Source: an uncultured Opitutales bacterium
GTDB taxonomy: Bacteria > Verrucomicrobiota > Verrucomicrobiia > Opitutales > UBA9783
Reading direction: 5' to 3'
Length of the DNA: 42,145 nt
Assembly (NCBI GenBank): GCA_944389435.1
Contig: CALXMI010000037.1
Coordinates: forward strand, 1-42,145
Shown here: piece after piece, positions 13,479 through 30,013 of the stretch
Position numbering within the stretch: the first letter of the stretch is position 1
Layout: every line of letters starts with the position of its first letter
Made by a program: the position numbers and the translations under genes
Notes under the pieces: model-generated
Database searches by the model: none
Seen by the model: the letters and a program-made list of their open reading frames with translations, nothing else
Told to the model about the DNA's origin: nothing

Positions 13479-14546
13479 TCAAATATAATTATTATCAAAC
13501 CGTTCCCAGTCAATGCCATGGTATAAGAATGTATCCAATGCCGCTCTTTCTTTAAGAAAAGTCGACGGAATCTCATCAATTATGTGCTTTAATATTTCTT
13601 TGTCTTGATTGAATTCATACTTCAAACATAAATTCAACCATTTTTCGGAAACTTGAACACAATCATTATATTTCACTAATGCAGAATTAGCTTCATCGGT
13701 AAGTGCAATTTCCCATTTCTCTATTATATATTCCATAGATGTTTTTATCATACACCTGTGTTCGTAAAGCTTCTTGGCAGCGCTCGTTAATCCTCTGAAC
13801 CAATCACAAAATTTATCTCCGTTAATCTCGGTTTGAAGAACTTCTTTAAAAGCGTCCAAACAAGCAATACCCATATAATGATAGTGGTGGTAACCATAAT
13901 CTCCTATTTCTTTTGGATGATGAATAATACATATCTTACCATCTAATTCTTTCCTAATTTTCAAATATGATTCAAAGGCACAATTATCCGGTTTATAGGT
14001 AGGATTCAGTTTCATTGCTGTGGCAGGATATTGAAAATTTATAGACAGTTCCATACCACGAAACGGTCTGTCTAAATAGTATTTTTTTATGTCTTCTATC
14101 GTGGCTTCTATATGTGAATAATCAATACATATGGTACGAAAGCCTCTTTCTGCAAGCCCCACAGAAATCAACTGCCCTTTACTATCGTCAAATCCGTAAA
14201 ATAGAACCTCATGATAATGATCTTCATTTATATATGGCTTAATATACATTATAATATAATATCCGCTTTTTAAGTTATCCTTTAAAGTATCTACTATATT
14301 GGGACTATTCATATCAAAGACTTTCAAAGGTTTTCTTTGCAAAATTTCTTCATGATATGACGGCGGATACATATTCATTTCTCCAAAATGAAAATTTCCG
14401 GCATCCGAATATAAATTATAATGTGAAGCTATCCAGTCCCTGTAATATTGCGATGTTTTTATAATAGCCAATCTATTGTATATCCAGCAATCTGTTACGG
14501 AATCAACATCTTCTATATGTATGGGTAGCTTTAATATCTCTTTCAT
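13479..14546 (-). CDS. BtrH/C39-like putative cysteine peptidase or acyltransferase
   Basis: A protein of 355 residues starting after AAAGGACAG. The N-terminal part has DCW (C20) and, about 90 residues on, YHEVLFYGFDD (H112). This spacing and the 'YYIIMYI...H..LFYGFDD' strand pair recall BtrH_N/papain-like folds in peptide and antibiotic clusters. The C-terminal 180 residues are helical and unrecognised. It has the same orientation as cluster 1 but is separated from it by about 0.9 kb of decayed sequence. Membership in the pathway, for example in leader removal or acyl transfer, is inferred; the catalytic pair is a guess from spacing. Confidence 0.72.
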   Translation of the reverse strand: MKEILKLPIHIEDVDSVTDCWIYNRLAIIKTSQYYRDWIASHYNLYSDAGNFHFGEMNMYPPSYHEEILQRKPLKVFDMNSPNIVDTLKDNLKSGYYIIMYIKPYINEDHYHEVLFYGFDDSKGQLISVGLAERGFRTICIDYSHIEATIEDIKKYYLDRPFRGMELSINFQYPATAMKLNPTYKPDNCAFESYLKIRKELDGKICIIHHPKEIGDYGYHHYHYMGIACLDAFKEVLQTEINGDKFCDWFRGLTSAAKKLYEHRCMIKTSMEYIIEKWEIALTDEANSALVKYNDCVQVSEKWLNLCLKYEFNQDKEILKHIIDEIPSTFLKERAALDTFLYHGIDWERFDNNYI

Positions 14547-14899: not shown

Positions 14900-15100
14900 T
14901 TAGTAAGTGCGAAATATTTTATTATTTTCTCCAAAAGTGAAATTGTATAATTTCGCATCTACAAAAAGACTGTAATGCGAAGCTATCCAATCTCTATAAT
15001 AGGGCGAATTTTTAGCTATAGTCAATCTGTTATATGTCCAACATTCTGTAACAGATTCTATATCATCAAATTTTAACGGCAACTCAAATGGATTAATCAC
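14900..15100 (-). pseudogene. Truncated paralogue of the BtrH-like gene
   Basis: A GTG at 15100 follows AAAGGAG. About 50 codons then match the start of the gene at 13479-14546: 'DIESVTECWTYNRLTIAKNSPYYRDWIASHYSLF' corresponds to 'DVDSVTDCWIYNRLAIIKTSQYYRDWIASHYNLY', including the CW pair. Similarity stops after FGEN and the frame soon ends, so only the N-terminal sixth of the protein remains. This is a decayed duplicate. Confidence 0.8.
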
Positions 15101-15464
15101 TATAAAACTCCTTTGTTGATAAAAATAAATCCGACATGCAAATGTATTGGTTTGAGACTTCTGGAACATAGTAATTTTTTACAAAGAAAAGCTCTCTTGC
15201 TGTTTTATTGACAAATATTTCTGCGGGATACGTTTTAAGCTAGAAATGTTTGCTGTTTTCTCCAAAGGCGACTTATATAATTTTTTATCTGCATATTCTG
15301 TAACGATTTATTCGTTGCTCATGCTTATTTGTGATTGTTGTTTATTTGTTATTTATAGCATCCTAAAATACAACTATTGTCAACATGCTGCCTATGTATA
15401 GCTCAACATGTCTTGAATACAGATGGCAATCATATTTTTATATCGAAGTGAGTACATATCCTCA
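15101..15464. other. Decayed region downstream of cluster 1
   Basis: Apart from the 15249-15311 fragment there is a short minus-strand open stretch at about 15105-15230 (coding for KTARELFF and NYYVPEVSNQ) that reads like the remnant of a protein, without a start. The plus-strand frame at 15385-15777 is antisense to the DUF2000 gene and has no ribosome site. Confidence 0.5.
15249..15311 (-). pseudogene. Second, internally deleted fragment of the BtrH-like gene
   Basis: The plus-strand stretch TTTTCTCCAAAGGCGACTTA and the following bases to about 15292 match the FGEN region of the fragment at 14900-15100. The adjoining ATTCTGTAACGATT matches its start region (ATTCTGTAACAGATT near 15050). The middle is missing, so this is a third copy reduced by deletion. 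Confidence 0.6.
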
Positions 15465-15881
15465 TCACTTTAACAAACTAAATGATTTCGTGATTTGTTT
15501 AATTTGTAGTTCTTCACCAAATATTGCTATACCTATAGGATTAAGATCAAATAGACAACTTTCGGTAATTGTTTTTTTATATACATCAAATTTATTGTTC
15601 AACGCTTGCCCTTCTTCTGTGAATATAACTAAAACAATGTTGTTAGTTTCATTGGTTTTCTTTATCGTTGAACTCAATTTCAACATTTTACTTAGATTTG
15701 TTTTCAATACAATAACATTGCACCTGATTGCACTATGTATAAAATCTGTTTTATCACAAAGTAGGTGCGAATTGTAAATATCATCACAACACTTTGCTAA
15801 TTGCCCCATCAAAATAGACGCTATATTAGCCGACACTCCAGGAGAAAGTTTTTCATTTACAATAATTGCAACCCTATTCAC
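15465..15881 (-). CDS. DUF2000-like protein, last gene of cluster 1
   Basis: A protein of 138 residues. The opening 'RVAIIVNEKLSPGVSANIASILMGQL' follows the DUF2000 pattern (a hydrophobic strand, then 'NE.L..G..AN..A.L'), a small alpha/beta fold related to peptidyl-tRNA hydrolase II. I chose the GTG at 15881 because GGGAGG lies seven bases upstream; an in-frame ATG at 15908 has no site. It overlaps the preceding gene by 8 bases, so it belongs to the cluster 1 operon. Its reaction is unknown; one possibility is to act on an activated intermediate made by the two genes before it. Confidence 0.72.
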   Translation of the reverse strand: MNRVAIIVNEKLSPGVSANIASILMGQLAKCCDDIYNSHLLCDKTDFIHSAIRCNVIVLKTNLSKMLKLSSTIKKTNETNNIVLVIFTEEGQALNNKFDVYKKTITESCLFDLNPIGIAIFGEELQIKQITKSFSLLK

Positions 15882-16434
15882 AAAAACACCTCCCTGATTT
15901 ATTTGCAAAACATACCCAAGGCATTATTACGCTATTTCTTAATATAGCTATAATATTCAATCCAAAATGCTCTGCACATAGTTTATTTGTTATTGATATG
16001 CAATTTGCATCTTCGTCCTGAATAAGTTCCTTACAGGCTTCTATGTTCGAATTAACATAAACAACATCTAAATTATCAACTTGTATATTTATTTCTCTTA
16101 ATAACGAATTGGTTGCTTGATGAAGATAGATTTTATCTGTTTTATGTAAATTTATGTTAGTGTTTTTGCTAACACAAACCAGAGGAGGAAGAGACTCTAA
16201 GAAAACTTCTGTGGCAATTAATTTGTTATCCATAATAAACTCGCTTATATTTGAGTATGCTGCAGGAACCAATATGCAAGAAAGTTCTTTTCTTTTCAAA
16301 GCGTCGGCAGCCGCCTCAAAAGAGTGATATGGTATAATCTCGGAATTGACATTCCATCTTCTTGCTATATACATGGAACAAGTCAAAGAACCAGAAGAGT
16401 CTCCTAGTGTACCAACTTTACATTTACGGGTCAT
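15874..16434 (-). CDS. Prephenate-dehydratase-like / type 2 periplasmic-binding-fold protein
   Basis: A protein of 186 residues. The start 'KVGTLGDSSGSLTCSMYIAR' followed by 'FEAAADALKRKELSCILVPAAY' resembles the first half of prephenate dehydratase (GPxGSFS ... A...G..D..V.P.EN). The usual catalytic Thr-Arg-Phe segment is not seen, so dehydratase activity is doubtful. The ATG at 16434 has GGAGG upstream and overlaps the preceding stop (ATGA). It may bind or remodel an amino-acid-derived substrate in cluster 1. It could equally be a binding protein without catalysis. Confidence 0.65.
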   Translation of the reverse strand: MTRKCKVGTLGDSSGSLTCSMYIARRWNVNSEIIPYHSFEAAADALKRKELSCILVPAAYSNISEFIMDNKLIATEVFLESLPPLVCVSKNTNINLHKTDKIYLHQATNSLLREINIQVDNLDVVYVNSNIEACKELIQDEDANCISITNKLCAEHFGLNIIAILRNSVIMPWVCFANKSGRCFCE

Positions 16435-17138
16435 TTTGCATCCTCCGTGAAACTGTTTATACAAGCTCTTCGTTCATTTGTTATAGTCAAATTATATTGT
16501 ATAGGGCTATCAAAACAATCCGCATCAACCAATGTTGTGTGAAACTCACCATTTTCACCGAATGGATCTATTCCGATAGATTTAAAGTGCTGATATGCTA
16601 ATCGATCATATTTTTCCCCAAGCCACTTTGTATCTATGGATGGATGGTTAATTGTAGTAATTATACTTTTAATTTTTCTGTTTTCTAGTTCCGTTATCAA
16701 ATCGTCATACGGAACTAGATACAAAGGGAAACATGGAATCATGCCGGCACTCTTACATAATTTGACTTGTATTATTATATTATCTAATGAATTCAAGTCA
16801 CCAAAAACGACATATTTTACTCCTTGCCGGCAGAAATCTCTGTATAACTTCGTGATTTTATCCCAACGCACCCACCATTTGTAATTAACATATATTATTG
16901 GGATGCGAAGTTTTTGAGCTTGTATATCTATTAAGCTTTGTTTTTGCTCATGAAACAACGATTCATTTTTATCGCTATCTAAACAATGGATTAAACTAAC
17001 AGCTTTACCAACCTCTAATGCTTTGGAAAGAGCAAGGCCAGAATCTTTTCCTCCACTGTACATAAAAACGAACGATTCATTTGTCGGTAAATTTCTATAT
17101 GATAAAAGATTTTCTTTATCAATGACAGTATAGTTCAA
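16431..17138 (-). CDS. Dph6-like N-type ATP pyrophosphatase (ATP_bind_4)
   Basis: A protein of 235 residues with the PP-loop SGGKDS at 28-33 and, near residue 196, GENGEFHTTLVDA. Both are hallmarks of the diphthine-ammonia ligase (Dph6/ATP_bind_4) family. Known members adenylate a carboxylate and form an amide. Bacteria lack diphthamide, so a biosynthetic use in cluster 1 is likely: amidation of the peptide or of a small adduct. The start is TTG at 17138 with AGAGGTG upstream. It is coupled to the next gene by ATGA. Confidence 0.85.
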   Translation of the reverse strand: MNYTVIDKENLLSYRNLPTNESFVFMYSGGKDSGLALSKALEVGKAVSLIHCLDSDKNESLFHEQKQSLIDIQAQKLRIPIIYVNYKWWVRWDKITKLYRDFCRQGVKYVVFGDLNSLDNIIIQVKLCKSAGMIPCFPLYLVPYDDLITELENRKIKSIITTINHPSIDTKWLGEKYDRLAYQHFKSIGIDPFGENGEFHTTLVDADCFDSPIQYNLTITNERRACINSFTEDAK

Positions 17139-17166
17139 TAATTTACACCTCTTATCTGTTTAATAT

Positions 17167-18945
17167 TTATCTATAATTCTCTGCTTGCTTACTAAACATC
17201 TCATAGTATTTGCCTCGTAGAGAGATCAACTCATCATGTGTGCCAACTTCTTTGACCCCCCCATCACCTATCAAATAAATTCTATCAGCGTTTCTAATAG
17301 TAGAAAGGCGGTGTGCAATGATAATAGTTGTCGATAAATTGCTACTGTCGAAAATAAGTTTTGTCATCTCATATTCTGCAATGGGATCCAATGCAGCTGA
17401 AGGCTCATCAAATATTAATAGTCCAAAATCCCCAGATAAAAGTCTTGCGATCCCAATCTTTTGAATTTCTCCTCCGGATAACATAATTCCGCCTTCATCA
17501 AATTCTTTCGTTACATTAGTGTGAATGCTTGCATTGTTTTTGATTAAAACATTTTTAAGATCCGCTCGCATTATAATATCGTGAACTTTTTTTTCGTCGG
17601 AATTATCATATATACACAGATTATCGGCAAAGGACATTGCATAAACATTTGTGTTTTGAAAAGCTACACCTATTCTTCGTCTCAAATCATTTATATCGTA
17701 GTTACGTATATCAACATCATTTATACATATGCTTCCTTTGTTAACATCATAAAACCGCATTAATAACTTAACTATTGTTGATTTTCCTACTCCATTTTCA
17801 CCTACTATAGCAATTTTTTCACCAGGATTGATTTTTAAATTTAAGTGATTTATTCGGAAATTTGAATTTTGATAATTAAAGGAGATATTGTTAAACGAAA
17901 TTTTAAATGCGCCCGTTGGAGCCATAATACCGGCATTTTTTTCTGTTTCTATGTAAGATTTCAGGTCGAAAAAATTTTTAATTCTTTTCGCATACATACT
18001 TAGACGATTTGCGTCTTTAACATAATAAAACATTTCATTTAACGCATTTTTTAAAGTTTCTACTGCTACCATCATAGTTATGTAAGAACCCACTGTTGCA
18101 ATATTTCCGGTATAAATACCATGCGCAATATTTAGAATAACGAATGTTCGCGCAATGTAAAACGTGAAGGTTCCTGTCAAAGCCCACGGAATCATTTTAA
18201 AAGCGAATTTCTTTATAACATTGATTTTCCCATCTTGGGCAGCATTGTATCCTGCGAACAGATAATCTTTTATATTGGTGCTTTTTAAATCTGCGGCATA
18301 GTTATTAGTATAGAAAACTCTATGATAATAATTCAGTTTTCTATCATATGGAATTATCTCCGTATCTTTTTTCACATCATAATAGTTTGTTAATATATGC
18401 ATTATATTCTCAACGATAGTCCCGATTATGGTGACAATCACAGCGATGGGACTTAATGTCGCAATAATAGAAAGCATTGAGATAATGGTTATAATGGAAG
18501 ACACCATTCGATTAACCATGTTTTGAGCATCGGCAGCTTTGGTTGCATACTCACTAACGGCCCATGTGTAACTATCGAAATACTCTGGATCATCAATATA
18601 TCTGTAATCCGTATTTATTGCCTTACGATAAGCGTTAAATTTCAACTGTGCATCAATCTGTGGTAACATTCTATTTTTGCAGAACATATTAAAAATATCT
18701 TCATAAACGGGCTGAAACATCAAAATTAACTGCATTAATATCACAATTAAACATATATCTTTAAAGGAATATCCCCCCTGTAACATATTGATAATTGTGC
18801 TCGGTAGATAGACCCCCACTAATTGAGCAATAGGTATTATTATTCCCCAAAAAAACAAAGAAAAAACTACAAACATTTTTCCATATTTCCAATATGGTTT
18901 GTATAGCCATGCTATATTCTTAATTGATTTAATTATTGTTTTCAC
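17167..18945 (-). CDS. ABC exporter (membrane plus ATPase) of cluster 1
   Basis: A protein of 592 residues. Hydrophobic segments lie at about 22-48, 60-75, 155-190 and 255-300, followed by an ATPase domain with Walker A GENGVGKST (about 380), signature LSGGEIQK, Walker B LLIFDEPSAALD and switch AHRLS. It is a full-length half-transporter, presumably a homodimer, without an N-terminal C39 peptidase, so it does not cleave a leader itself. The start is GTG at 18945 inside the end of the kinase gene, with AAGGA upstream. It probably exports the cluster 1 product. Confidence 0.92.
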   Translation of the reverse strand: MKTIIKSIKNIAWLYKPYWKYGKMFVVFSLFFWGIIIPIAQLVGVYLPSTIINMLQGGYSFKDICLIVILMQLILMFQPVYEDIFNMFCKNRMLPQIDAQLKFNAYRKAINTDYRYIDDPEYFDSYTWAVSEYATKAADAQNMVNRMVSSIITIISMLSIIATLSPIAVIVTIIGTIVENIMHILTNYYDVKKDTEIIPYDRKLNYYHRVFYTNNYAADLKSTNIKDYLFAGYNAAQDGKINVIKKFAFKMIPWALTGTFTFYIARTFVILNIAHGIYTGNIATVGSYITMMVAVETLKNALNEMFYYVKDANRLSMYAKRIKNFFDLKSYIETEKNAGIMAPTGAFKISFNNISFNYQNSNFRINHLNLKINPGEKIAIVGENGVGKSTIVKLLMRFYDVNKGSICINDVDIRNYDINDLRRRIGVAFQNTNVYAMSFADNLCIYDNSDEKKVHDIIMRADLKNVLIKNNASIHTNVTKEFDEGGIMLSGGEIQKIGIARLLSGDFGLLIFDEPSAALDPIAEYEMTKLIFDSSNLSTTIIIAHRLSTIRNADRIYLIGDGGVKEVGTHDELISLRGKYYEMFSKQAENYR

Positions 18946-19786
18946 TTTCTGTCATTCCTTGGTAAAATAAAAAATTAGTAATCGCTATAAAATTATTCGT
19001 ATTACGGTAAGCAACTTCATAAACTTTTGTGTTTTTTAGAAGATTGTTTATATCTTGAAATAGCGTACACATATCTTTAGAATGTCTTACATTATTGATA
19101 ATTGTTTTAAAAGCTTCACTTTTATCTAGTTTGCGTACGAAATCATTTTCGTTGTTGTACTTAGGCAATATTACTACGTCTATATTGTGCACACTAGGAC
19201 TTGTCTTTGGGGGATAATAAATTGTTCGCATTGTTTCTCCATCAAAAGTCTCACCCACCATATTGCTTTCCATCAATTGATCAACATTTTCTCTCACGGA
19301 AATAGGCATATTAAATCCGATATACTTACTTTTAGAAATATAAACGCAATCGTCGTCTATGTATTCTGCGTGCAAAACCAACGACAAATAGCTTGTTAAT
19401 GTTGTTTTACCGGATTTTCTTTCTCCTATCAATAAAATATTTTTATTGTTTAATCTCACACAAGAACCATGAATAATTGTACAATTCAAAATATTTGCAT
19501 ACCAATCTTCTAAAGCCCCAATTAATTGAAAAGCAAAGTGCTTGTCAATTGCATTGCAAAAAATACGATAGGGTGCTTTGTCGATGCATTTTTTGAAGGT
19601 GTTTCCAGAAACTATTTCTAACGCAATATCATTATCCGTGCTTTCATTTTTTGTATCTAAAAAAGTTTTTTTATAAGTGGAAAGCAAAGTTTCAAACAAA
19701 CCAACATTTTTCAAATAAAGGTTTTTGTCTATATGTAGTTTTAATGTAGTGTCATTAATGGTCCGCTTAAAATAAAGCACGATCAT
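18929..19786 (-). CDS. HPr-kinase-like peptide kinase of cluster 1
   Basis: A protein of 285 residues. An IIHGSCV segment (H106) is followed by a Walker A LIGERKSGKTTL (about 119-130) and YIDDDCVYI, the order seen in HprK C-terminal-like kinases. Such kinases occur in RiPP clusters beside PqqD-like proteins; in paeninodin-type lasso clusters they phosphorylate the C-terminal serine of the precursor. The precursor at 21536-21640 ends in serine, so it is a plausible substrate (inference). Its ATG is preceded by AAGGAG. It overlaps the ABC gene by 17 bases. Confidence 0.82.
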   Translation of the reverse strand: MIVLYFKRTINDTTLKLHIDKNLYLKNVGLFETLLSTYKKTFLDTKNESTDNDIALEIVSGNTFKKCIDKAPYRIFCNAIDKHFAFQLIGALEDWYANILNCTIIHGSCVRLNNKNILLIGERKSGKTTLTSYLSLVLHAEYIDDDCVYISKSKYIGFNMPISVRENVDQLMESNMVGETFDGETMRTIYYPPKTSPSVHNIDVVILPKYNNENDFVRKLDKSEAFKTIINNVRHSKDMCTLFQDINNLLKNTKVYEVAYRNTNNFIAITNFLFYQGMTESENNN

Positions 19787-19798
19787 TCTCCTTATCTT

Positions 19799-20098
19799 TT
19801 AAACGTATTCTTTGATTAGTTCTTCGCAACAGAACTCTTTCAAAATTTTATTTACATCATCAAGCAAGCTTATATTTGTTTTTTGCGGTGCATATGTGGA
19901 TATAATTTTTTCACAAATATATTGGCTGCTGATATCTAAATTTTGTTCATTTGCCTCATTAAGAATATTCCAAATAAAAGAAGCGGATTGATTTAAAGAA
20001 ATTATACGCTTGCGTTGCTTGTCGTATGCAACAATCTCGTTCTCTATATTTTCTATTTCAAGTTTCGTTAATATCATTTCTTTGCCGTTAATTTTCAT
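19799..20098 (-). CDS. PqqD-like RiPP recognition protein
   Basis: A protein of 99 residues with the PqqD layout: a beta hairpin 'EIVAYDKQRKRIISLNQSASFIW' (D24, N36 and W43 in typical places) followed by helices. PqqD domains bind leader peptides and bring them to radical SAM enzymes. It lies between the SPASM enzyme and the kinase, with TAGGAG before its ATG. It is expected to bind the leader of the 34-residue precursor. Confidence 0.85.
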   Translation of the reverse strand: MKINGKEMILTKLEIENIENEIVAYDKQRKRIISLNQSASFIWNILNEANEQNLDISSQYICEKIISTYAPQKTNISLLDDVNKILKEFCCEELIKEYV

Positions 20099-20108
20099 AA
20101 TTATACTC

Positions 20109-21461
20109 CTAATTGCTTGTTAATTTATAAACAGAATTTTTTCCAAAAAGAACGTTGTCGACTAATTCAGCTTTCCAACCAAAGCATGTATTTCCACAAA
20201 GAATCTCGGTAAATACATACGACCAGTACTTTCGAATTAATTGACACTCATAATCCCTGTATTTTGTATCAAAGGCATTGTCTCTCACAACCTTTAGCGG
20301 ACAGCCGCCTTTGCAAAAACGATACGCTATACATCCTCTGCACTCATCAAAAGAATTCTTCACCACATCTAAATGTTGATCGGTATAGCTGTTATAAAAA
20401 TCCACCATATTGTCTTTTATTTCGGCAACGATGGTTTTGAACTGCTCGGCCTCAATACAGTTGATAATTTTTCTATCTGGCATCAGCCAAAAACATTCTG
20501 CAAATGTAGCTCCGCAACAGTATTCTGCAATAGTATTATTAAATATCGGTGTAGAAATATATAACTTGTAATTCTTTTCCTTTGCGTAGTTATGTAAGTT
20601 CACATAATGGTGAAAGAAATCGTATTTTTCTATGTTGTATTGATCTTTGTTGCCGTTTTTTAATGCACGCCCAGACGGAATTATTGGCATAATGCTCCAC
20701 TCGTTTATACCAGAACTGTTGTTTGCAATGTTATCACAAATTTGCTTGAGGTTTTCAAAGTTTTCATACCAAACAGTTGATCTTACCGTTAGTGAGCGTC
20801 CGCTTTGGCTAAAGTCTTGAAGAGTTTTTTCGACGACTGGAGATGAATTTGTTGTGTCAGAACATTTTCTGTTTCTGTTTTGCAAAAAAGATGTTCCATC
20901 ATACGACAACATAATTTTGTCAAAATGTTTAATTATAAATTTTCTCTGAGAGTTATTAAGCATTCCATTTGTCGTTAATTCAAAATAATAAGGCACAGAG
21001 CAGTTATCACAAAGATTTTTTATGGCACGTATTGACTCTTTAAACAACTCCCAATTAAATGTAGGCTCACCACCTCCCGTGAAAAAGAATCGCAAAGGTT
21101 CAGAATCATCGTTCTTATCAATAAATTGATATATTTTCCTCTTTTTAATTGCTTCTTTAACAAAAACGAGAATATCTTTCACTGACAGTAAGTCCTGATT
21201 TCCGCTGGTTGAAGAATAACTACAGTAATTACACCTTAATTGACAATTGTATGTCAAACATATACCAATCAAATTTATTGGCTTGTTTTTGGCAGACATT
21301 TTTGTTTTATCTAATTTATCTAAACAACTTTTTAATTCTTCATAATTATCAGTTTTTCTACAAATAGTATTTATTTCGGTTATTACGCTTTGTGCTGCGT
21401 CTTTGGGATAAAATATCAGTCTTTCCGAGTCGAAAATATAATTGCCTATATAGTGGTACAT
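20109..21461 (-). CDS. Radical SAM/SPASM peptide maturase of cluster 1
   Basis: A protein of 450 residues. CQLRCNYC (C73, C77, C80) is the 4Fe-4S site and FFTGGGEPTF binds SAM. The C-terminal part is SPASM-like, with CCGATFAEC and CRGCIAYRFCKGGCP supplying ligands for auxiliary clusters. Enzymes of this type make thioether, C-C or similar crosslinks on peptides. The ATG at 21461 has GGAGGA ten bases before it and is preferred over 21509. The gene follows the precursor directly, so the likely substrate has the core CCPTGKTNS. The bond formed cannot be predicted; a cysteine thioether is one option. Confidence 0.92.
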   Translation of the reverse strand: MYHYIGNYIFDSERLIFYPKDAAQSVITEINTICRKTDNYEELKSCLDKLDKTKMSAKNKPINLIGICLTYNCQLRCNYCSYSSTSGNQDLLSVKDILVFVKEAIKKRKIYQFIDKNDDSEPLRFFFTGGGEPTFNWELFKESIRAIKNLCDNCSVPYYFELTTNGMLNNSQRKFIIKHFDKIMLSYDGTSFLQNRNRKCSDTTNSSPVVEKTLQDFSQSGRSLTVRSTVWYENFENLKQICDNIANNSSGINEWSIMPIIPSGRALKNGNKDQYNIEKYDFFHHYVNLHNYAKEKNYKLYISTPIFNNTIAEYCCGATFAECFWLMPDRKIINCIEAEQFKTIVAEIKDNMVDFYNSYTDQHLDVVKNSFDECRGCIAYRFCKGGCPLKVVRDNAFDTKYRDYECQLIRKYWSYVFTEILCGNTCFGWKAELVDNVLFGKNSVYKLTSN

Positions 21462-21535
21462 AAACGCATCTTCCTCCAAATAGATGGTGTAAATAGTTCT
21501 AGACACCATTTATATATATATTTCTTATGATAGCA

Positions 21536-21640
21536 CTATGAGTTCGTCTTGCCGGTAGGACAACACGATGCAGCGCGAGCCTCAATAGCACGAAGTTCTT
21601 CTTCGTCATACACTACGATAGCAGGTGTTTCGTATACCAT
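21536..21640 (-). CDS. RiPP-like precursor peptide of cluster 1 (34 residues)
   Basis: The peptide opens MVYETPAIVVYDEEEL, has a helical middle (RAIEARAAS) and ends CCPTGKTNS. A strong ribosome site (GAGGAGGG) lies five bases before the ATG at 21640. It is the first gene after a near-consensus promoter and directly precedes the SPASM maturase, the usual precursor position. The acidic leader, the Ala-rich junction and a short core with paired cysteines support a modified peptide. It shares its pattern (P-x-[IV]-V, then EL, then an A-rich helix, S and C) with the second precursor at 22010. A C-terminal serine could be the kinase target. Confidence 0.85.
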   Translation of the reverse strand: MVYETPAIVVYDEEELRAIEARAASCCPTGKTNS

Positions 21641-21961
21641 AATTTCCCTCCTCTCTCATTCATTCTAATATGTTTTTGGTTCGCTAGAACTATTTACTGA
21701 GTTTAAACGATAAATAATACCGAGTTACAATCCATTAGCAAAATCCGTGCATTTTTAAAAACAATTGTAAGTTTGTTCCGTATCAGATTATAATATAACA
21801 GTTTATATTTGTCAATATTTCGTTTAGTGATTTTAAAAAATAAAATAAAAAAACGTCAAATTGTAGCCATTTTGTAGATAATCTCTTGATTTTTGATAGA
21901 ATAAATGTTATTATATTCAAAAAGCATCGTTTGGTTGTTTTAGGTTTTGCTTCTTAACATA
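21641..21961. other. Leader region and promoter of cluster 1, otherwise no gene
   Basis: From the promoter near 21800 to the precursor ATG there is an untranslated leader of about 140 bases, AT-rich, without a clear riboswitch fold or terminator. Between the promoter and the terminator at 21962 (about 21816-21961) I see no supported gene; the small frames there lack ribosome sites. Confidence 0.6.
21787..21815 (-). promoter_or_regulatory. Consensus sigma-A promoter of cluster 1
   Basis: On the minus strand, TTGACA (21815-21810) is followed by exactly 17 bases and then TATAAT (21792-21787), a perfect match to the vegetative consensus. It drives the precursor and the downstream enzymes. Such a strong promoter suggests constitutive transcription unless a repressor binds. 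Confidence 0.85.
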
Positions 21962-22009: not shown

Positions 22010-22120
22010 TTATCTGAAATCTCCGGCGAAACATTGTCCGGATCTTGCAGCTGCTTGAATATGTTTTGCCAACTCTTTGGCACTCAATTCTACAACCACA
22101 GGCTTAACCCATTTTTTCAA
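22010..22120 (-). CDS. Second RiPP-like precursor peptide (36 residues, TTG start)
   Basis: The peptide opens MKKWVKPVVVELSAKEL, has an AKHIQAAARSG middle and ends QCFAGDFR. The start is a TTG at 22120 that overlaps the stop of the regulator gene (TTGA), with AAGGGGGG seven bases upstream, so translation is coupled. It is followed at once by a terminator. The pattern 'W.KP.V..LSA.EL...I.A.A.SG.C' is typical of precursors handled by PqqD and radical SAM proteins. There is no enzyme gene downstream on this strand, so cluster 2, divergent on the other side of the regulator, is the likely maturation set. Cluster 1 enzymes are the alternative. Confidence 0.78.
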   Translation of the reverse strand: MKKWVKPVVVELSAKELAKHIQAAARSGQCFAGDFR

Positions 22121-23178
22121 CTAAATCCCCCCTTATCTTTATAATATTTTTCTAACATACCGCATAGGGTCTGAAAGTACTGTTTATTAATGCTGTAAAG
22201 AATGGTTCTCCCGCGATTTCGCGTCTTAAGCATACCAGCTTTTATCATTAAAGATAGATGGTAATAAGCATTTGTTCCAGTAAATCCGAATTCTTGCTCC
22301 AAATCTTTTATTGTTATTTCTTCTTTTTCATATATCAAGTTCAAAACCGAAACTCTGTTTGATTCAGAAATTGCGTTTCCGAAATTTTCAAGCTCTGGCA
22401 ATCTAAACTGAACAGTCAAATAATTGATATGTTCAATATAATCAATACCTAATAATATTACAACTTCATTTGAATAATAGTGTGTTTTAACACAATTCTT
22501 ATGATATAAGCAGAACGTGATGTAAATATCGTCAAAACAAGAAAAATCGCCTTTTTGATTTTTCGTTTGCATAAGTTGGTTTAAAACAATATCAAAATCA
22601 AAATTATCTTTAAGTTCACTCAATAATTTATGTTTTGCATCATACTTTTGAGATAACGCAAAACTTTTCTCCATCAACTCATATGACAGTTTGTGGATAA
22701 CCGTTTCAGGCTCTATAAAGAACGAATATAACGCACTTTTAATTTCACCGCTATATGTGGAATTTTTGATGAACTTATTAACATAGGTTATCGAGTCCTT
22801 ACATTTTATGACATCTTCTTCGCGAATATCCTTAAAGTAGAATCTAATAATATTCTCTTTTACCTTTTCGTGATTGGATAATTCTTCTTGCACCATAGAG
22901 AGATTATAATTTTCAAAAACAAAATGTGCTTTATATGGCTCGTAATAATATTTAGTTATTACATTCTTTTTGTCTTCTGTGAAATAGAAAAACAAAAGAA
23001 GCTCATCTGAAATCGGTGAAAATTCATTTAGTATTTTACTGTAATAGTCAGTATCTTCACTTGATTTACTATAGTTTATGAAATTTGTCAGACAATAATC
23101 CTTGTTAAAATTAAAAGCAAATAAGAAAAAAAGGTCGTATATAAAGCCGGGTTCATCAAGAAATTTAATATTTCTCAT
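22117..23178 (-). CDS. Winged-helix (ArsR-like C-terminal) regulator coupled to precursor 2
   Basis: A protein of 353 residues. The last 80 or so form a winged helix: ITIKDLEQEFGFTGTNAYYHL is the helix-turn-helix and TRNRGRTILYSI the wing. The first 260 residues are a large unrecognised helical domain, perhaps a ligand sensor. The ATG at 23178 has AAGGAGG eight bases upstream and is preferred over the GTG at 23181. It has a paralogue at 35873-36817 with the same layout. It is transcribed divergently from cluster 2 across a palindrome and is coupled to a precursor gene, so peptide-responsive autoregulation is plausible. Confidence 0.85.
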   Translation of the reverse strand: MRNIKFLDEPGFIYDLFFLFAFNFNKDYCLTNFINYSKSSEDTDYYSKILNEFSPISDELLLFFYFTEDKKNVITKYYYEPYKAHFVFENYNLSMVQEELSNHEKVKENIIRFYFKDIREEDVIKCKDSITYVNKFIKNSTYSGEIKSALYSFFIEPETVIHKLSYELMEKSFALSQKYDAKHKLLSELKDNFDFDIVLNQLMQTKNQKGDFSCFDDIYITFCLYHKNCVKTHYYSNEVVILLGIDYIEHINYLTVQFRLPELENFGNAISESNRVSVLNLIYEKEEITIKDLEQEFGFTGTNAYYHLSLMIKAGMLKTRNRGRTILYSINKQYFQTLCGMLEKYYKDKGGFS

Positions 23179-23203
23179 CACCGTATCCTCCTTAACTTCG
23201 TTA

Positions 23204-23859: not shown

Positions 23860-23898
23860 TCATTGGCAAATTATAAATCGCAAATCAGGGAGAATATT

Positions 23899-24708
23899 AT
23901 GTTAACGATAGCCATACACGCACCATTCCAAACAAGCTTTACCATAAAAACCAACTGCAAAGAGTTAGCAAATGCAATTGTGTTAAGGCACGGTAAATAT
24001 GCAACTAAAAGTACAACTCAATCAGATATTACAATTATCGCTGAAAAAGAACAATCAGGTTATAGCATATACTTTAACGGCAATTCTGTAAAAACAAATG
24101 CTCCCTTAAAAAAAATAGAAGACATTATGTATGACAACCGTAAATATGAAGAAACAATATTTGCCGTTCACGGCGGTGCTGTAGAATACAATAATGGCGC
24201 ATATCTTGTTGTTGCCTCCACTACAAGCGGAAAAACCACCCTTACATCATATCTAGTTTCAAACGGTTTTGGATATATTACTGATGATTGCATACTTCTT
24301 GACCGTGAAAGCTTTAAAATATATCCGTTTACAACTCCCCTGCATTTGCGCAAAGGCGGTTATAACGCTCTGAAAGCTTTAGGTTGTGCCCCTGAAAGCT
24401 ATGATTTTTTAGACTCGGTTTCCATTAAAAGATATGTTTATACGCCTAATAATTCTGTTTCAAAACCGCTGCCGCTTAAAAAAATATTTTTTATCACAAG
24501 AACGGAAGATACGAATATGATAGAAGAAATGAATACCACAGAAAAAATAACCGCTCTTCTCAAATCGCCTATTACTGAATATGAAATTGGCGGCAGTTAT
24601 CTTTCGTTTATTTCCAAACTGTCCGCTATTCCCTGCAAAAGGCTTTATTACAGCAATATGGATTTTGTCGCCGAGGTAATTAAATATGAACAACAATCTT
24701 ATAATTAA
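23899..24708 (+). CDS. HPr-kinase-like peptide kinase of cluster 2
   Basis: A protein of 269 residues. The order FAVHGGAVE (H91), then VVASTTSGKTTL (105-115), then YITDDCILLDRE matches the HPr-kinase-like protein of cluster 1, but the first glycine of the P-loop is alanine. The ATG at 23899 has AGGGAG upstream and is chosen over 23863. It overlaps the next gene by 23 bases, giving a kinase plus PqqD pair as in cluster 1. It may phosphorylate a precursor serine or threonine; Ser27 of precursor 2 is a candidate. Confidence 0.8.
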   Translation: MLTIAIHAPFQTSFTIKTNCKELANAIVLRHGKYATKSTTQSDITIIAEKEQSGYSIYFNGNSVKTNAPLKKIEDIMYDNRKYEETIFAVHGGAVEYNNGAYLVVASTTSGKTTLTSYLVSNGFGYITDDCILLDRESFKIYPFTTPLHLRKGGYNALKALGCAPESYDFLDSVSIKRYVYTPNNSVSKPLPLKKIFFITRTEDTNMIEEMNTTEKITALLKSPITEYEIGGSYLSFISKLSAIPCKRLYYSNMDFVAEVIKYEQQSYN

Positions 24709-25405
24709 AATTCTGCCTGCTGTTTTAAAAACCAAAGGACAGGCAGAACTCACTGTAACAGGGACGAGCATGGAACCGACTCTAATTGAAGGTGATTTGA
24801 TAACAATCATAAAGTGTGATAATTACACAATCGGCGATATTCTTGTTTTTGACTATAAAAACGAGGGGCTTCTGGTTCACAGATTACTAAAAACATCCAA
24901 CCGATACTTCTGTAAAGGCGATAATTCTTTTAGGCTTGAAGATATGCCTGCAGAAAACATTATTGGAAAAGTCACAGCTGTAAACGGAGTTCCAATTGCC
25001 GTTTGGCAAAAATGGAAAATGGATTTGTCTTATGCTGTCAATCGATCATTTGTTAAATCAAAATATGATATTACAAATACAATGCAGACAGATATATATA
25101 AACTGTATTCAGCCTTAATTTTAGGAAAAGAGGAAAACAAAATGAATTACAAGAAAACAGATAAAATGGACTTTATTCTTTCAGATGAAACTTCACTTGC
25201 CGTATTTGATCCGGAAAGCAACAATACATACTTTTTTGACGAAACCGGGATAGACATTCTAAATTGTCTTGACATCCCTTGTGATATTGAAATGCTTTTA
25301 GATATGCTTTGCAATATTTATTCAGCATCCCCTGAAGATATCAGGGCAGATGTTGAAGAATTCTTAGCAGATACAGTAACCAAAGGAATTGTTGAAATAG
25401 TATGA
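24686..25405 (+). CDS. S26 (SipW-like) signal-peptidase domain fused to a PqqD domain
   Basis: A protein of 239 residues. The first part is peptidase-like: VTGTSMEPTLIEGD (S28), GLLVHRLLK (H65) and FCKGDN (77-80). This is the Ser-His arrangement of SipW/SEC11-type enzymes. The last 90 residues are PqqD-like (LAVFDPESNNTYFFDETGIDIL). No clear membrane segment is present, unusual for S26 enzymes. An in-frame ATG at 25142, preceded by AAGAGGAAAAC, could give the PqqD domain alone. The fusion would let one protein bind and cut the leader (inference). It overlaps the radical SAM gene by ATGA. Confidence 0.82.
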   Translation: MNNNLIIKILPAVLKTKGQAELTVTGTSMEPTLIEGDLITIIKCDNYTIGDILVFDYKNEGLLVHRLLKTSNRYFCKGDNSFRLEDMPAENIIGKVTAVNGVPIAVWQKWKMDLSYAVNRSFVKSKYDITNTMQTDIYKLYSALILGKEENKMNYKKTDKMDFILSDETSLAVFDPESNNTYFFDETGIDILNCLDIPCDIEMLLDMLCNIYSASPEDIRADVEEFLADTVTKGIVEIV

Positions 25406-26448
25406 ACATTAAAACCGTTTATGTTGAAATAACTAATTTCTGCAACTTAAATTGTATCACTTGCTATAACCGATCGGGCTTAAACTGTCAAAGAACAGAA
25501 TTGTCATTTGAACAAATCGAGAATATTATCAAACTTTTTACGCCTTTAGGATTGAAAAGATTTTTATTATCAGGTGGAGAACCTACACTGCATTCCGAAT
25601 TTGACAAAATTCTTGATTTAATCGATAAATATCCAAAAATTAATTTTGGTATTGTTACTAACGGAACAAATCATAATAAAAAGCTATTAGAATGCCTTAA
25701 CTCAAGAGACAATTTAAAACTTCAGATAAGTCTTGACGGTTCCTGTGAAGAAATAAATTCCAAAACCCGCGGTATAGGCAATTTCAAAAAGACCTTAAGC
25801 TTTGCCAAACAAATACGCACCGCTCATAATATTCCTCTGCTTAAAATGGTCATATCACAAGGCAATTATGACGATGTAGAAAATTTCTGCAATTTAGCGA
25901 TTTCATTAGGCTTTACACCTGAACTTGCATTTATATACAAATCCGGAAACGGGTGTGACGAATGGGGCACTAAAGAGCTTACATCCATACAAAAATTAAA
26001 AATATTGAAACTTGTCGAGCGCATTAATAAAGAAAGAAATGCAGGTATATTTCTTCCAATCTGCACCACAAAATGTCCGTTAGCAGAAGGAATCAATGAA
26101 CTTTCTTTCTGTATTAAAGTAGACGGTTCAATTCAACCATGTCAATCCCTTTACAGTGAAAAATATACTGTCGGAAATGTTCTTTTCTTCGATAAAAAGC
26201 TATTTTTACAGAATATAAATAATATTTCCGATTTAGCAAGGCAGCGTTGTGAACAAGACTATGGCTGTGAAAAATGTATGCTGAATGACATTTGCGGCAG
26301 AGGATGCATGGCAGAAGCTGTAAATCTTCACGATAATCCATTTGCAAGTGACGGCAACTGCGAATATAGAAAACAACAATTTATTAACTTTAATCTAAAA
26401 GGAGGTATATCTGTACTTGAAAAAGAAGACAAAACATTCCACGCTTAG
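25402..26448 (+). CDS. Radical SAM/SPASM peptide maturase of cluster 2
   Basis: A protein of 348 residues. CNLNCITC (C14, C18, C21) is the 4Fe-4S site and LLSGGEPTL binds SAM. The C-terminal SPASM region has FCIKVDGSIQPCQSL and CEKCMLNDICGRGCMAE, then a last cysteine in GNCEYR. It follows the peptidase-PqqD fusion directly (ATGA overlap) and overlaps the first ABC gene by 32 bases. Substrate and bond type are unknown. Precursor 2 (a single Cys30) is the nearest candidate. Confidence 0.9.
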   Translation: MNIKTVYVEITNFCNLNCITCYNRSGLNCQRTELSFEQIENIIKLFTPLGLKRFLLSGGEPTLHSEFDKILDLIDKYPKINFGIVTNGTNHNKKLLECLNSRDNLKLQISLDGSCEEINSKTRGIGNFKKTLSFAKQIRTAHNIPLLKMVISQGNYDDVENFCNLAISLGFTPELAFIYKSGNGCDEWGTKELTSIQKLKILKLVERINKERNAGIFLPICTTKCPLAEGINELSFCIKVDGSIQPCQSLYSEKYTVGNVLFFDKKLFLQNINNISDLARQRCEQDYGCEKCMLNDICGRGCMAEAVNLHDNPFASDGNCEYRKQQFINFNLKGGISVLEKEDKTFHA

Positions 26449-28228
26449 CAACAATTTATACATACTGAAACAAATACATATTGCAAGCCGCGGAAGAATA
26501 TTTTTTGAACTTTCGAGTATTATACTAAACACCGTTTCAAATATACTACTTGATGTTTATATGTTCAAATATATTATTAATGGTATTCAAAAGGGCTTAG
26601 ATTTTAAAAGACTTGTCGGTTTTATCCTGATTATTACGGCGTTTCATATTTTCACCGCTACCGTTGTCGACTATTTTTGGGAAAAATTCGCACCTGTCTC
26701 GAATCAAAAAATATATAGCCATATTCAAAAAAACTTGTTCGAAAAGGCCTCGTCTGTCGAGTTTGCCTGCTTTGAAGACCCTGACTTTTACGATAAATAT
26801 GTTAAAGCAATAAGCGAAGCATACAATAGAACCAATGAGGTTCTAAGGTCGTTGTGCGACATTGTATATTTTATTTTTAACGCTTTTGCTACCTCGTTTA
26901 TCATATTTACAATTGATCCCGTGCTGATAGTATTCGCGCTGATACCCTTTATTGTAAGTATTCTGTTCGGGAAAAGGCTTAACAAAGTGCGATACAATTA
27001 CACTATGGAAATGCAGGAAAAATCCAGAAAACGCGACTATGTAAAAAGGGTGTTTTACCTTGCCGACTACGCAAAGGAAATGCGGCTCACGAATATAAAC
27101 AGGGTTATGTTCAAAAAATTTTACGAGGCGATAAAGGAGCTTAAGGGGGTTATTAAAAAGCACGGGCTTAAGGTTGCGTTATTGGATTATTTGTTCATAG
27201 CGGTTAATGATATTATCGTTTACCTCGGCGCTATTCTATATTCCGCCTATAAAACCCTTGTTTCAAAAACAATGCTTTACGGCGACTGCGTGGTTGTTAT
27301 AAACGGAATAAACAATGTCGCGTGGTCACTGCGCAATATGGCTGATGTTTTTATTCAGTTTCAGAATCACTCGCTTTATATCGACAATCTGCGCTATTTC
27401 CTTGAATACAAGCCCGCAATTTATGAAAACAGGGAGGGACTCGACCCGCCCGATACCTGCGCGCTCACCCTTAAAAACGTAAGCTTTAAATACGCAGGTC
27501 AGGAAGATTATTCCCTTAAAAATATTAATTTCACAATAAAGCAGGGCGAAAAAATCGCCTTGGTCGGTCACAACGGCGCGGGTAAAACCACCCTTGTTAA
27601 GCTGTTAATGCGGCTTTACGATGTGACCGAGGGCGAGATACAGCTAAACGGCAGACCGATAAAGGAATACAAGCTTAAAGGCTACCGTAATCTGTTCTCG
27701 GTTGTGTTTCAGGATTTCAAGGTCTTCGCCGTATCGGTTTTGGAAAATATTTTGCTTAAAGCAGATATTACTAAGGAAGAAAAAAATCGCGCGGTAAGCG
27801 GTATGAAGGACGCGGGTATTTATGACAAGGTAATGTCCCTTGAAAAGGGCTATGAAACCGTGCTTACAAAGGAATTTGACGAAAACGGAGCGGTGCTTTC
27901 GGGCGGAGAGACCCAGAAAATCGCTATATCAAGGGTGTTTGCAAGGGACTGCCCCATCGCGATTTTAGACGAGCCTTCAAGTGCGCTTGACCCGCTGGCG
28001 GAGTACGCCATGTACGAGGCTATGATGAATGCGTGCAGGGACAAGGCGGTAATCTTTATTTCCCACAGGCTTTCCTCCGCGGTTTTGGCGGACAGGGTTT
28101 ACCTTATGGAAAAGGGAGAAATAATTGAAAGCGGCACCCACCGAGAGCTGCTCGAAAAGGGCGGCAAATACGCCGATATGTGGAGCAAGCAGGCGGAAAA
28201 ATACCGTAAAAAGGAGGAAGATGTATGA
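26417..28228 (+). CDS. ABC half-transporter 1 of cluster 2
   Basis: A protein of 603 residues starting at TTG after AAAGGAGG. The membrane domain spans about residues 30-320 and the ATPase has Walker A GHNGAGKTT (about 383), signature LSGGETQK, Walker B IAILDEPSSALD and SHRLSS. No C39 peptidase domain is present. It forms an ATGA-coupled pair with the next gene, probably a heterodimeric exporter. By eye, GC content rises inside the gene near 27000. Confidence 0.92.
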   Translation: MKKKTKHSTLSNNLYILKQIHIASRGRIFFELSSIILNTVSNILLDVYMFKYIINGIQKGLDFKRLVGFILIITAFHIFTATVVDYFWEKFAPVSNQKIYSHIQKNLFEKASSVEFACFEDPDFYDKYVKAISEAYNRTNEVLRSLCDIVYFIFNAFATSFIIFTIDPVLIVFALIPFIVSILFGKRLNKVRYNYTMEMQEKSRKRDYVKRVFYLADYAKEMRLTNINRVMFKKFYEAIKELKGVIKKHGLKVALLDYLFIAVNDIIVYLGAILYSAYKTLVSKTMLYGDCVVVINGINNVAWSLRNMADVFIQFQNHSLYIDNLRYFLEYKPAIYENREGLDPPDTCALTLKNVSFKYAGQEDYSLKNINFTIKQGEKIALVGHNGAGKTTLVKLLMRLYDVTEGEIQLNGRPIKEYKLKGYRNLFSVVFQDFKVFAVSVLENILLKADITKEEKNRAVSGMKDAGIYDKVMSLEKGYETVLTKEFDENGAVLSGGETQKIAISRVFARDCPIAILDEPSSALDPLAEYAMYEAMMNACRDKAVIFISHRLSSAVLADRVYLMEKGEIIESGTHRELLEKGGKYADMWSKQAEKYRKKEEDV

Positions 28229-30000
28229 AAGAAAAGGGCAGCGTACTGTTTATGATTAAGCAAGCCGTAAAATATGTTCCCTCCTTCTGTCTCTTTACAG
28301 TTGCGGAGGGTGTTGTTTGGGGCTGTATACACTCCTTTACAAGTACGCTCTTTATAAAGGCGCTGTTTGACAGAATAGAAAGCGGCGTCCCCTATTCTGA
28401 AATACTCCTGCTTGTCCTTGCTATGGCGGTTTTTCTTATTTCAGCCTACATATTCCACGAATGGTACTGGCAGTTTATAGAGCCGAAAGCGCGGCAGGAG
28501 CTGCACAAAAAAATGCAGGAGCAGCTATACAAAAAAGCGGCTTCCATAGACCTTGCCTGCTATGACCGCCCCGACTTTTACAACGACTTTGTCTGGGCGA
28601 TTAACGAGGCGGACTCAAGAACAATCGCAATATGTGAGGACATAGGCAAAATAATAAACCGCCTTATCACATCGGCGGTTATAATAGGCGTTTTATTCAC
28701 GATAGATTTGTGGATTGTGGCGGCGGTGCTTTTTTCGGTTGTCTTCAGCGTAGTTTTGCAAAGACTTATTACAAAAATTTATTTTAAGCGCGACAACGAG
28801 CTTAAACCCTTTCAACGCAGGGCTGAATATATAAGCAGGGTTCACTATCTTGCGGACTATGCAAAGGAAATCCGAATGAGCGAAGCCGAGGACTTACTCT
28901 TAAAGAATTTTGACACGGCTGTAGGAAGCAATATTTCAATAACCAAGTCCTACGGCAATAAGCTGTTTTTTCTGAATCTTACAAGAACCACCTTTACCGC
29001 CGTAATGTTTGACGCGGTTATTACAATACTGCTACTTTATAAGATGATGATAGAAAAATCCGTAACTCTCGGCGGATTTGCCGCCACATTCAGCGCTATG
29101 TGGAAGCTTTTTTGGACGCTTAATAATCTTATGGATTATTTTGCAAAATTCAAGGAGCATAAGCTTTATGCTAACAAGTTCAGGGTGTTTCTTAATTACG
29201 AGCCAACCGTGTGCGATAAGGAGGGTTGTACCGAATTAACCGCCCCGTTTAAGACCCTTGAGCTTAAAAATGTCTCCTTTGCCTACCCTGAAGCCGAAAA
29301 AAACATAATAAACGGCATAAATATGACCGTAAAGGCGGGGCAAAAAATCGCCCTTGTTGGCTACAACGGTGCGGGCAAATCAACCCTTGTAAAACTGCTT
29401 TTAAGACTATATGATGTTTCAGGCGGCGATATTTTTATAAACGGCAAGAGCATTAAGGATTACACCCTTTGCTCCTACCGAAACAAATTCGGTACCGTTT
29501 TTCAGGATTTTCAGCTCTACGCCGCCGATATTGCCGAAAACGTCCTTACCGACGAATATTCCGAAGAAGACCAGTCCCGCGTACTTGAAGCCCTTAAAAA
29601 CAGCGGATTTGAAGAAAGGCTTTCTTCCCTTAAGGAGGGTATTCACACACCGCTTACAAAGGAATTTGACCAAAGCGGAATTAACCTTTCGGGCGGCGAG
29701 GCGCAAAAAGTCGCAATATCAAGGGTGTTTGCAAAGGACTGCGAGATAGTTATTTTAGACGAGCCCTCAAGCGCACTCGACCCTATGACCGAATACGAAT
29801 TAAACAATACTCTGATGACCGCCCTTGACAAAACGGTTATAATAATTTCCCACCGCCTTTCTACGACCCGTATGGCGGACGTTATCTATATGCTTGAAAA
29901 CGGCGAGATTATTGAACAGGGCAGTCACGACGAGCTTATGCAAACGGGCGGCAAATACGCCGAAATGTTTTTAAAGCAGGCGGAAAAATATAATTTTTAG
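28225..30000 (+). CDS. ABC half-transporter 2 of cluster 2
   Basis: A protein of 591 residues coupled by ATGA to the previous gene, with AAGGAGG upstream. It has an N-terminal membrane domain, Walker A GYNGAGKST (about 378), signature LSGGEAQK, Walker B IVILDEPSSALD and SHRLST. Both partners have an intact ATPase core. It is clearly related to its neighbour and to the cluster 1 exporter. Its base composition is GC-richer than that of the genes on either side. Confidence 0.92.
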   Translation: MKEKGSVLFMIKQAVKYVPSFCLFTVAEGVVWGCIHSFTSTLFIKALFDRIESGVPYSEILLLVLAMAVFLISAYIFHEWYWQFIEPKARQELHKKMQEQLYKKAASIDLACYDRPDFYNDFVWAINEADSRTIAICEDIGKIINRLITSAVIIGVLFTIDLWIVAAVLFSVVFSVVLQRLITKIYFKRDNELKPFQRRAEYISRVHYLADYAKEIRMSEAEDLLLKNFDTAVGSNISITKSYGNKLFFLNLTRTTFTAVMFDAVITILLLYKMMIEKSVTLGGFAATFSAMWKLFWTLNNLMDYFAKFKEHKLYANKFRVFLNYEPTVCDKEGCTELTAPFKTLELKNVSFAYPEAEKNIINGINMTVKAGQKIALVGYNGAGKSTLVKLLLRLYDVSGGDIFINGKSIKDYTLCSYRNKFGTVFQDFQLYAADIAENVLTDEYSEEDQSRVLEALKNSGFEERLSSLKEGIHTPLTKEFDQSGINLSGGEAQKVAISRVFAKDCEIVILDEPSSALDPMTEYELNNTLMTALDKTVIIISHRLSTTRMADVIYMLENGEIIEQGSHDELMQTGGKYAEMFLKQAEKYNF

Positions 30001-30013
30001 GAAGTGTACGAAT

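Follow-up and report, generated by a model that had tools for sequence, protein, structure and literature searches.

A predicted RiPP operon carrying a putative bacilysin-like module and a Dph6-type protein in an uncultured Opitutales bacterium

Several described pathways resemble parts of the locus considered here. Bacilysin biosynthesis distributes its roles among the supply of a small acid, an ATP-dependent ligase and an exporter (PMC9147277). Homologues of HPr kinase (HPrK) in lasso-peptide clusters phosphorylate a C-terminal Ser (PMC8498205), and the radical S-adenosylmethionine (SAM) enzyme PapB crosslinks motifs of the Cys-Xn-Asp/Glu type (PMC9413430). Genes reminiscent of these systems lie together in a contig of 42,145 nucleotides (CALXMI010000037.1, hereafter the window) from an uncultured Opitutales bacterium (assembly GCA_944389435.1), between positions 15465 and 21640 of the minus strand (cluster 1). 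Judged from its predicted genes, an operon for a ribosomally synthesized and post-translationally modified peptide (RiPP) is by far the best reading of cluster 1. We further favour, at slightly less than an even chance, that this RiPP operon took in a bacilysin-like small-molecule module in which a Dph6-type ligase replaces an ATP-grasp enzyme, and that the module modifies the peptide.

The operon consists of eight closely packed genes encoding, in order, a precursor peptide, a SPASM radical SAM maturase, a PqqD-type carrier, an HPrK-like kinase, an ATP-binding cassette (ABC) exporter, a Dph6-type protein, a prephenate dehydratase (PDT)-fold protein and a DUF2000 protein. Upstream lies a sigma-70 promoter (TTGACA-17-TATAAT, 21787-21815, minus strand, read from 21815 to 21787). 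It agrees with the consensus at 12 of 12 positions and is alone in this among the 40 promoter-like matches of the region scanned. The intergenic gaps are 26, 10, 12, -17, 28, -4 and -8 nt with the maturase taken at 466 aa, the first becoming 74 nt if the maturase begins at codon 17 (450 aa). The last three genes (hereafter the trio) are promoter-distal, behind the 28-nt gap, and overlap one another by 4 and 8 nt. Open reading frames (ORFs), all on the minus strand, and promoter thus agree with the initial annotation, which had placed these eight genes here in one operon under a consensus promoter. The operon lacks a gene for a leader protease.

The precursor gene (21536-21640, minus strand) would encode 34 aa, MVYETPAIVVYDEEELRAIEARAASCCPTGKTNS, with a Y..P motif in the leader, CC in the core and Ser at the C terminus. 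The Y..P leader motif is also a feature of lasso-peptide precursors. The ORF is preceded by a strong ribosome-binding site, gagaGGAGGGaaattATG, and lies directly upstream of the maturase gene. Hence a short leader-core precursor, of predicted translation, adjoins modifying enzymes, as in RiPP operons, and the predicted leader-binding component is present as a PqqD-type carrier or RiPP recognition element (19799-20098, minus strand; PF05402, 26.1 bits, cut-off 23.4). The precursor matched no family, and its sole relative seen is a second precursor-like ORF, MKKWVKPVVVELSAKELAKHIQAAARSGQCFAGDFR (22010-22120, minus strand), which has the same leader pattern and could belong to cluster 1 or to the neighbouring cluster 2. 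The pattern common to both is [YW]..P..VV.....EL...I.A.A.S..C, and a terminator-like hairpin of 15 pairs follows the second ORF at 21998-21965.

The maturase (20109-21461, minus strand), recognised by its motifs and TIGR04085, has 450 aa, or 466 aa from a start at 21509. The shorter form, which agrees with the 450 residues initially annotated, is preferred because a better ribosome-binding site (ttGGAGGAagatgcgtttATG) precedes the internal start at codon 17. The protein matches the radical SAM family PF04055 at 39.3 bits (cut-off 29.5) and the SPASM model TIGR04085 at 30.2 bits (cut-off 27), with CX3CX2C at residues 89-96 and the SPASM motif CX2CX5CX3C at 390-403 (numbering of the 466-aa form). 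PapB, CcpM, SCIFF and lachnocin maturases are among the families that score best against it. Together with the CC of the core, these matches would fit a ranthipeptide or sactipeptide-type cluster of the ordinary kind, with passenger genes as accessories, and thus a further member of a class already described. The ranthipeptide-type maturases PapB, SCIFF and CcpM indeed share with the window enzyme the SPASM radical SAM architecture and a short, Cys-bearing substrate. However, the window enzyme reaches no curated equivalog cut-off among the NCBIfam-type models and stays far below each of the best ones (PapB NF047865, 86.6 of 340 bits; CcpM TIGR04068, 66.8 of 500; SCIFF TIGR03974, 63.7 of 425; lachnocin, 58.8 of 550). 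Furthermore, no Asp or Glu follows the cysteines of the core, ASCCPTGKTNS, which therefore lacks the Cys-Xn-Asp/Glu motif of PapB, and the crosslinked cysteines proposed in the initial annotation stay hypothetical. In addition, the lachnocin cluster that was viewed has an annotated S8 protease and neither PqqD nor kinase annotated, whereas the window operon has both, and membership of a known class of this kind appears improbable. Across 373 genomes of the order, no close relative of the maturase was found outside its own genome, the next two matches having 24% and 27% identity. Nothing that was searched placed the maturase in a characterised family whose clusters hold these partners, a placement that would have refuted a new class.

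The kinase (18929-19786, minus strand) matches TIGR04352 weakly (25.1 bits, cut-off 200). Its HG..V, P-loop (GERKSGKTT) and DDD motifs nonetheless align with those of other HPrK-like proteins, pointing to a distant HPrK relative. Because the precursor ends in Ser and the lasso-peptide homologues act on a C-terminal Ser, it is reasonable to infer by analogy that the kinase phosphorylates the C-terminal Ser of the precursor. The lasso systems of paeninodin and pseudomycoidin likewise have an HPrK-like kinase beside a PqqD-type carrier and a precursor ending in Ser. They differ from the window operon, which has a radical SAM maturase instead of lasso machinery: the B2 transglutaminase-like protease (PF13471) was not found in the binned genome (88% complete), and no asparagine-synthetase-like cyclase was present among the cluster proteins scanned, the rest of the genome not being searched for the cyclase. 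The cluster-1 kinase, used as a query, found no other genome in the order. TIGR04352 gave weak matches in 40 of 309 genomes of the phylum, and among 15 such places, which were extended and scanned with the window proteins, one held a kinase-PqqD-ABC operon, with no radical SAM gene in it (L096). The negatives of these searches depend on distant phmmer matching. The exporter (17167-18945, minus strand; ABC_tran, 97.2 bits, cut-off 25) combines permease and ATPase, and a Pfam scan matched no peptidase domain in it. PqqD and SPASM enzymes also operate in PQQ and mycofactocin-type pathways, by whose logic the precursor would give rise to a redox cofactor or a small pseudo-amino acid rather than an exported peptide. 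This is very improbable here, as the operon has a dedicated ABC exporter as well as a kinase and lacks a partner dehydrogenase or peptidase.

The trio was initially described as amide-forming, a description that family membership backs for one of its members. The Dph6-type ATP pyrophosphatase (16431-17138, minus strand), a putative adenylating amide ligase, belongs to the amide-forming family PF01902 (Diphthami_syn_2, 94.6 bits, cut-off 23.2) and has 3rjz and 2d13 as solved relatives. It shares with the diphthine-ammonia ligase Dph6 the family and the SGGKDS and GE.GEFHT motifs (here GENGEFHT) but misses the Dph6 equivalog cut-off (TIGR03679, 80.0 of 197.3 bits). To our knowledge, diphthamide is absent from bacteria. 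The PDT-fold protein (15874-16434, minus strand; PF00800, 32.9 bits, cut-off 25.2) is of a BacA-like type. A profile of its family scored two BacA-annotated proteins, from Pantoea and Streptomyces, at 52 and 46 bits versus 7 for the one true prephenate dehydratase compared, and MPW aligns where prephenate dehydratase has its catalytic TRF motif. At the level of sequence, it hence stands nearer to BacA, a prephenate decarboxylase, than to that single dehydratase. The best fold match of its AlphaFold model (mean confidence, pLDDT, 88.9) is still a prephenate dehydratase, 6vh5. A role as dehydratase of the phenylalanine pathway was considered and dropped, the TRF motif being absent. The DUF2000 protein (15465-15881, minus strand; PF09391, 60.3 bits, cut-off 25) has a fold like that of peptidyl-tRNA hydrolase 2 (PTH2); its structure could be modelled well, the model matching solved 2gax (TM score 0.83) and then PTH2 1xty. 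A literature search on the word DUF2000 alone found nothing. As neither the BacA-like nor the DUF2000 protein belongs to an amide-forming family, the notion of a trio that forms amides throughout was abandoned.

The bacilysin pathway (BacA, the ligase BacD and the exporter BacE) resembles the window in combining a BacA-like protein, an ATP-dependent amide ligase and an exporter. It differs in that the window ligase is of the Dph6 type, not ATP-grasp, and in that the window genes share an operon with a RiPP precursor. Relatives of the BacA-like protein were sought with a hand-made DNA pattern for TN..CA.[HY]...MPW scanned over a collection of 84,980 genomes, which gave 20 loci of 8 kb each. BLAST with the window proteins found a BacA-like ORF in 18 of them (17 full and one truncated, L020), and no BacA-like or DUF2000 match in the other two, from ANME-2 (L017) and Verrucomicrobia (L026). 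DUF2000 accompanies the BacA-like ORF in 14 of the 18, all of them Paenibacillus (L015, L018-L025, L027, L028 and L030-L032); the two ORFs overlap in the Paenibacillus cluster, and an ATP-grasp gene is within reach in 13 loci and a major facilitator superfamily (MFS) gene in 12. Since the loci span only 8 kb, a missing gene may lie beyond the edge in the others. In the four Curvibacter/Acidovorax loci, an MFS gene accompanies the BacA-like ORF, with no DUF2000 match. On a Priestia plasmid (L008), the pair occurs with ATP-grasp, MFS and aminotransferase genes; the next matches of its BacA-like protein are Pantoea proteins annotated as BacA. More distantly related is a Pantoea region that contains a BacA protein and DUF2000 together with an MFS gene and a phenylacetate-CoA-ligase-family protein.

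Compared with the window, the BacA-like and DUF2000 proteins are 41-45% and 29-31% identical in Paenibacillus, and 42.8% and 37.5% identical in Priestia. The ATP-grasp enzymes of both resemble the dapdiamide synthase DdaF, and that of Priestia is also similar to BacD, although no score reaches its cut-off. Unlike in the window, no radical SAM, PqqD, kinase, Dph6 or ABC protein was matched within the 8-kb Paenibacillus loci, and none is annotated beside the Priestia pair. Dph6-like matches viewed on Priestia and Peribacillus plasmids stand alone, without the pair. We know of no characterised product of the Paenibacillus cluster. As an ATP-grasp gene lies beside the pair elsewhere and a Dph6 gene in the window, the place of the carboxylate-activating ligase would be kept while its type changed. 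From these comparisons, the pair is assigned to a putative bacilysin-like module. Searches at the level of the phylum (388 genomes) and the class (345 genomes) brought up no further copy of the BacA-like protein, and a scan of the genome collection with a two-row alignment (A1) gave 72 pattern matches and no relative. In viral contigs, nothing was confirmed with P0001, P0005, A1 or a DUF2000 profile (A3), and the TN..CA.[HY]...MPW DNA pattern had 0 matches.

The distribution of the pair also bears on the possibility that one transcript serves two products, the first five genes making an exported RiPP and the trio a small molecule of its own, dipeptide-like or an amide, such as the related pair probably makes in Paenibacillus. 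The two products would then have in common no more than the promoter and perhaps the exporter. At the limits used, the window maturase, kinase, PqqD, Dph6 and ABC exporter had no match in the 18 BacA-like loci of 8 kb, no RiPP genes are annotated beside the Priestia pair, and the position of the trio behind the 28-nt gap is in keeping with such a division. However, whereas the pair comes with an MFS gene in Paenibacillus and with MFS and aminotransferase genes in Priestia, the window trio includes neither an exporter nor an aminotransferase, and we regard two products as possible but rather unlikely.

The reading that the bacilysin-like module modifies the peptide is favoured because of the genes present, their motifs and their spacing, the BacA-like profile scores, and the recurrence of the pair in the company of an exporter and an ATP-dependent ligase. 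The PqqD carrier would bind the YETPAIVV leader, the radical SAM enzyme would crosslink or otherwise alter the ASCCPTGKTNS core and the kinase would phosphorylate the C-terminal Ser. A small acid or amine would be made or handled by the BacA-like/DUF2000 pair. Using ATP (and yielding AMP and PPi), the Dph6-type enzyme would activate a carboxylate and join the small molecule to the peptide by an amide, and the ABC protein would export the final product. The full hybrid, a radical-SAM-modified and C-terminally phosphorylated peptide joined through an amide by the Dph6-type enzyme to a non-ribosomal block from the pair, is possible but rather unlikely. No precedent was found for Dph6-type chemistry in RiPP biosynthesis.

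Several observations weigh against this reading. A tie between the trio product and the peptide would be conjectural, as co-transcription also fits two products, and the searches gave no relative of the operon as a whole against which conservation could be judged. BacB, BacG and BacF, which BacA pathways also need, were not recognised in the operon. Chorismate synthase was not found in the binned genome or in eight family members, so a BacA activity in that host would have no prephenate at hand and would need another source of it, unless the contig belongs elsewhere. The contig has a tetranucleotide profile that correlates at 0.56 with the sampled contigs of the bin, 11 of 12 of which correlate at 0.83-0.93 and one as low as the window contig, each sampled contig being scored against a pool containing it. 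Judged by eye, one ORF at the right end resembles a VirD4-type coupling protein. Together with the atypical profile, this may point to a mobile element or to a binning error. As for the phosphorylated C terminus expected in the initial annotation, the terminal Ser and the conserved HPrK motifs would fit it. A caution is that Arg is the last residue of the second precursor-like ORF, even though an HPrK-like kinase is encoded in cluster 2 as well.

Cluster 2, a second RiPP-like operon (23863-32247, plus strand), encodes this kinase, a signal-peptidase/PqqD fusion, a radical SAM enzyme, two ABC proteins, a fusion of acyl carrier protein and FkbH, and NTP_transf_5. The NTP_transf_5 match is split over the overlapping frames 31194-31679 and 31564-32247 (profile positions 41-124 and 137-248), reflecting either a frameshifted gene or an assembly error. 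The radical SAM, PqqD, kinase and exporter core of cluster 1 is thus repeated, with differing partners. SynChlorMet and HPr-rel-A cassettes, whose NCBIfam models cover the same kinds of proteins, similarly combine a kinase-like protein (ScmC or HprK_rel_A) with a PqqD-like partner, and SynChlorMet adds the SPASM enzymes ScmE and ScmF. In contrast to these families, the window proteins match entirely below cut-off: cluster-2 proteins score below it throughout, no Scm model matches the cluster-1 kinase or PqqD, and none is among the best 25 for the maturase. A Dph6/BacA/DUF2000 module is not known from either system. The candidate new RiPP class of the initial annotation hence stands in part. 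The RiPP operon is supported, no curated family claims the maturase and the whole gene combination was found nowhere else in the genomes searched, but the core recurs in cluster 2, the cysteine crosslinks are hypothetical and the BacA-like/DUF2000 pair, which in Paenibacillus and Priestia has ATP-grasp and MFS genes as neighbours, is not RiPP-specific. As the core set is a recurring architecture, novelty rests on the divergence of the maturase and on the trio.

Other features surround the two clusters. An ArsR-type winged-helix regulator (22117-23181, minus strand; NF033788, 45.4 bits, below the cut-off of 55) lies upstream of the second precursor-like ORF; it has a long N-terminal region, as does a similar regulator at 35873-36817. 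Two related ORFs that follow the operon on its own strand (13479-14546 and 14900-15169, the second a fragment) have no Pfam match above cut-off. At 32271-35669, a 1132-aa protein with a NACHT domain (29.8 bits, cut-off 26.7) is possibly a defence protein.

The combination of BacA-like protein, DUF2000, ATP-grasp ligase and MFS transporter emerges as a recurring cluster type of its own, with many examples in Paenibacillus. The window operon provides a concrete setting in which to learn the roles of DUF2000 and of bacterial Dph6-like proteins. If the favoured reading is true, ribosomal peptide maturation and bacilysin-like amino-acid or amide assembly would be linked in one short operon.

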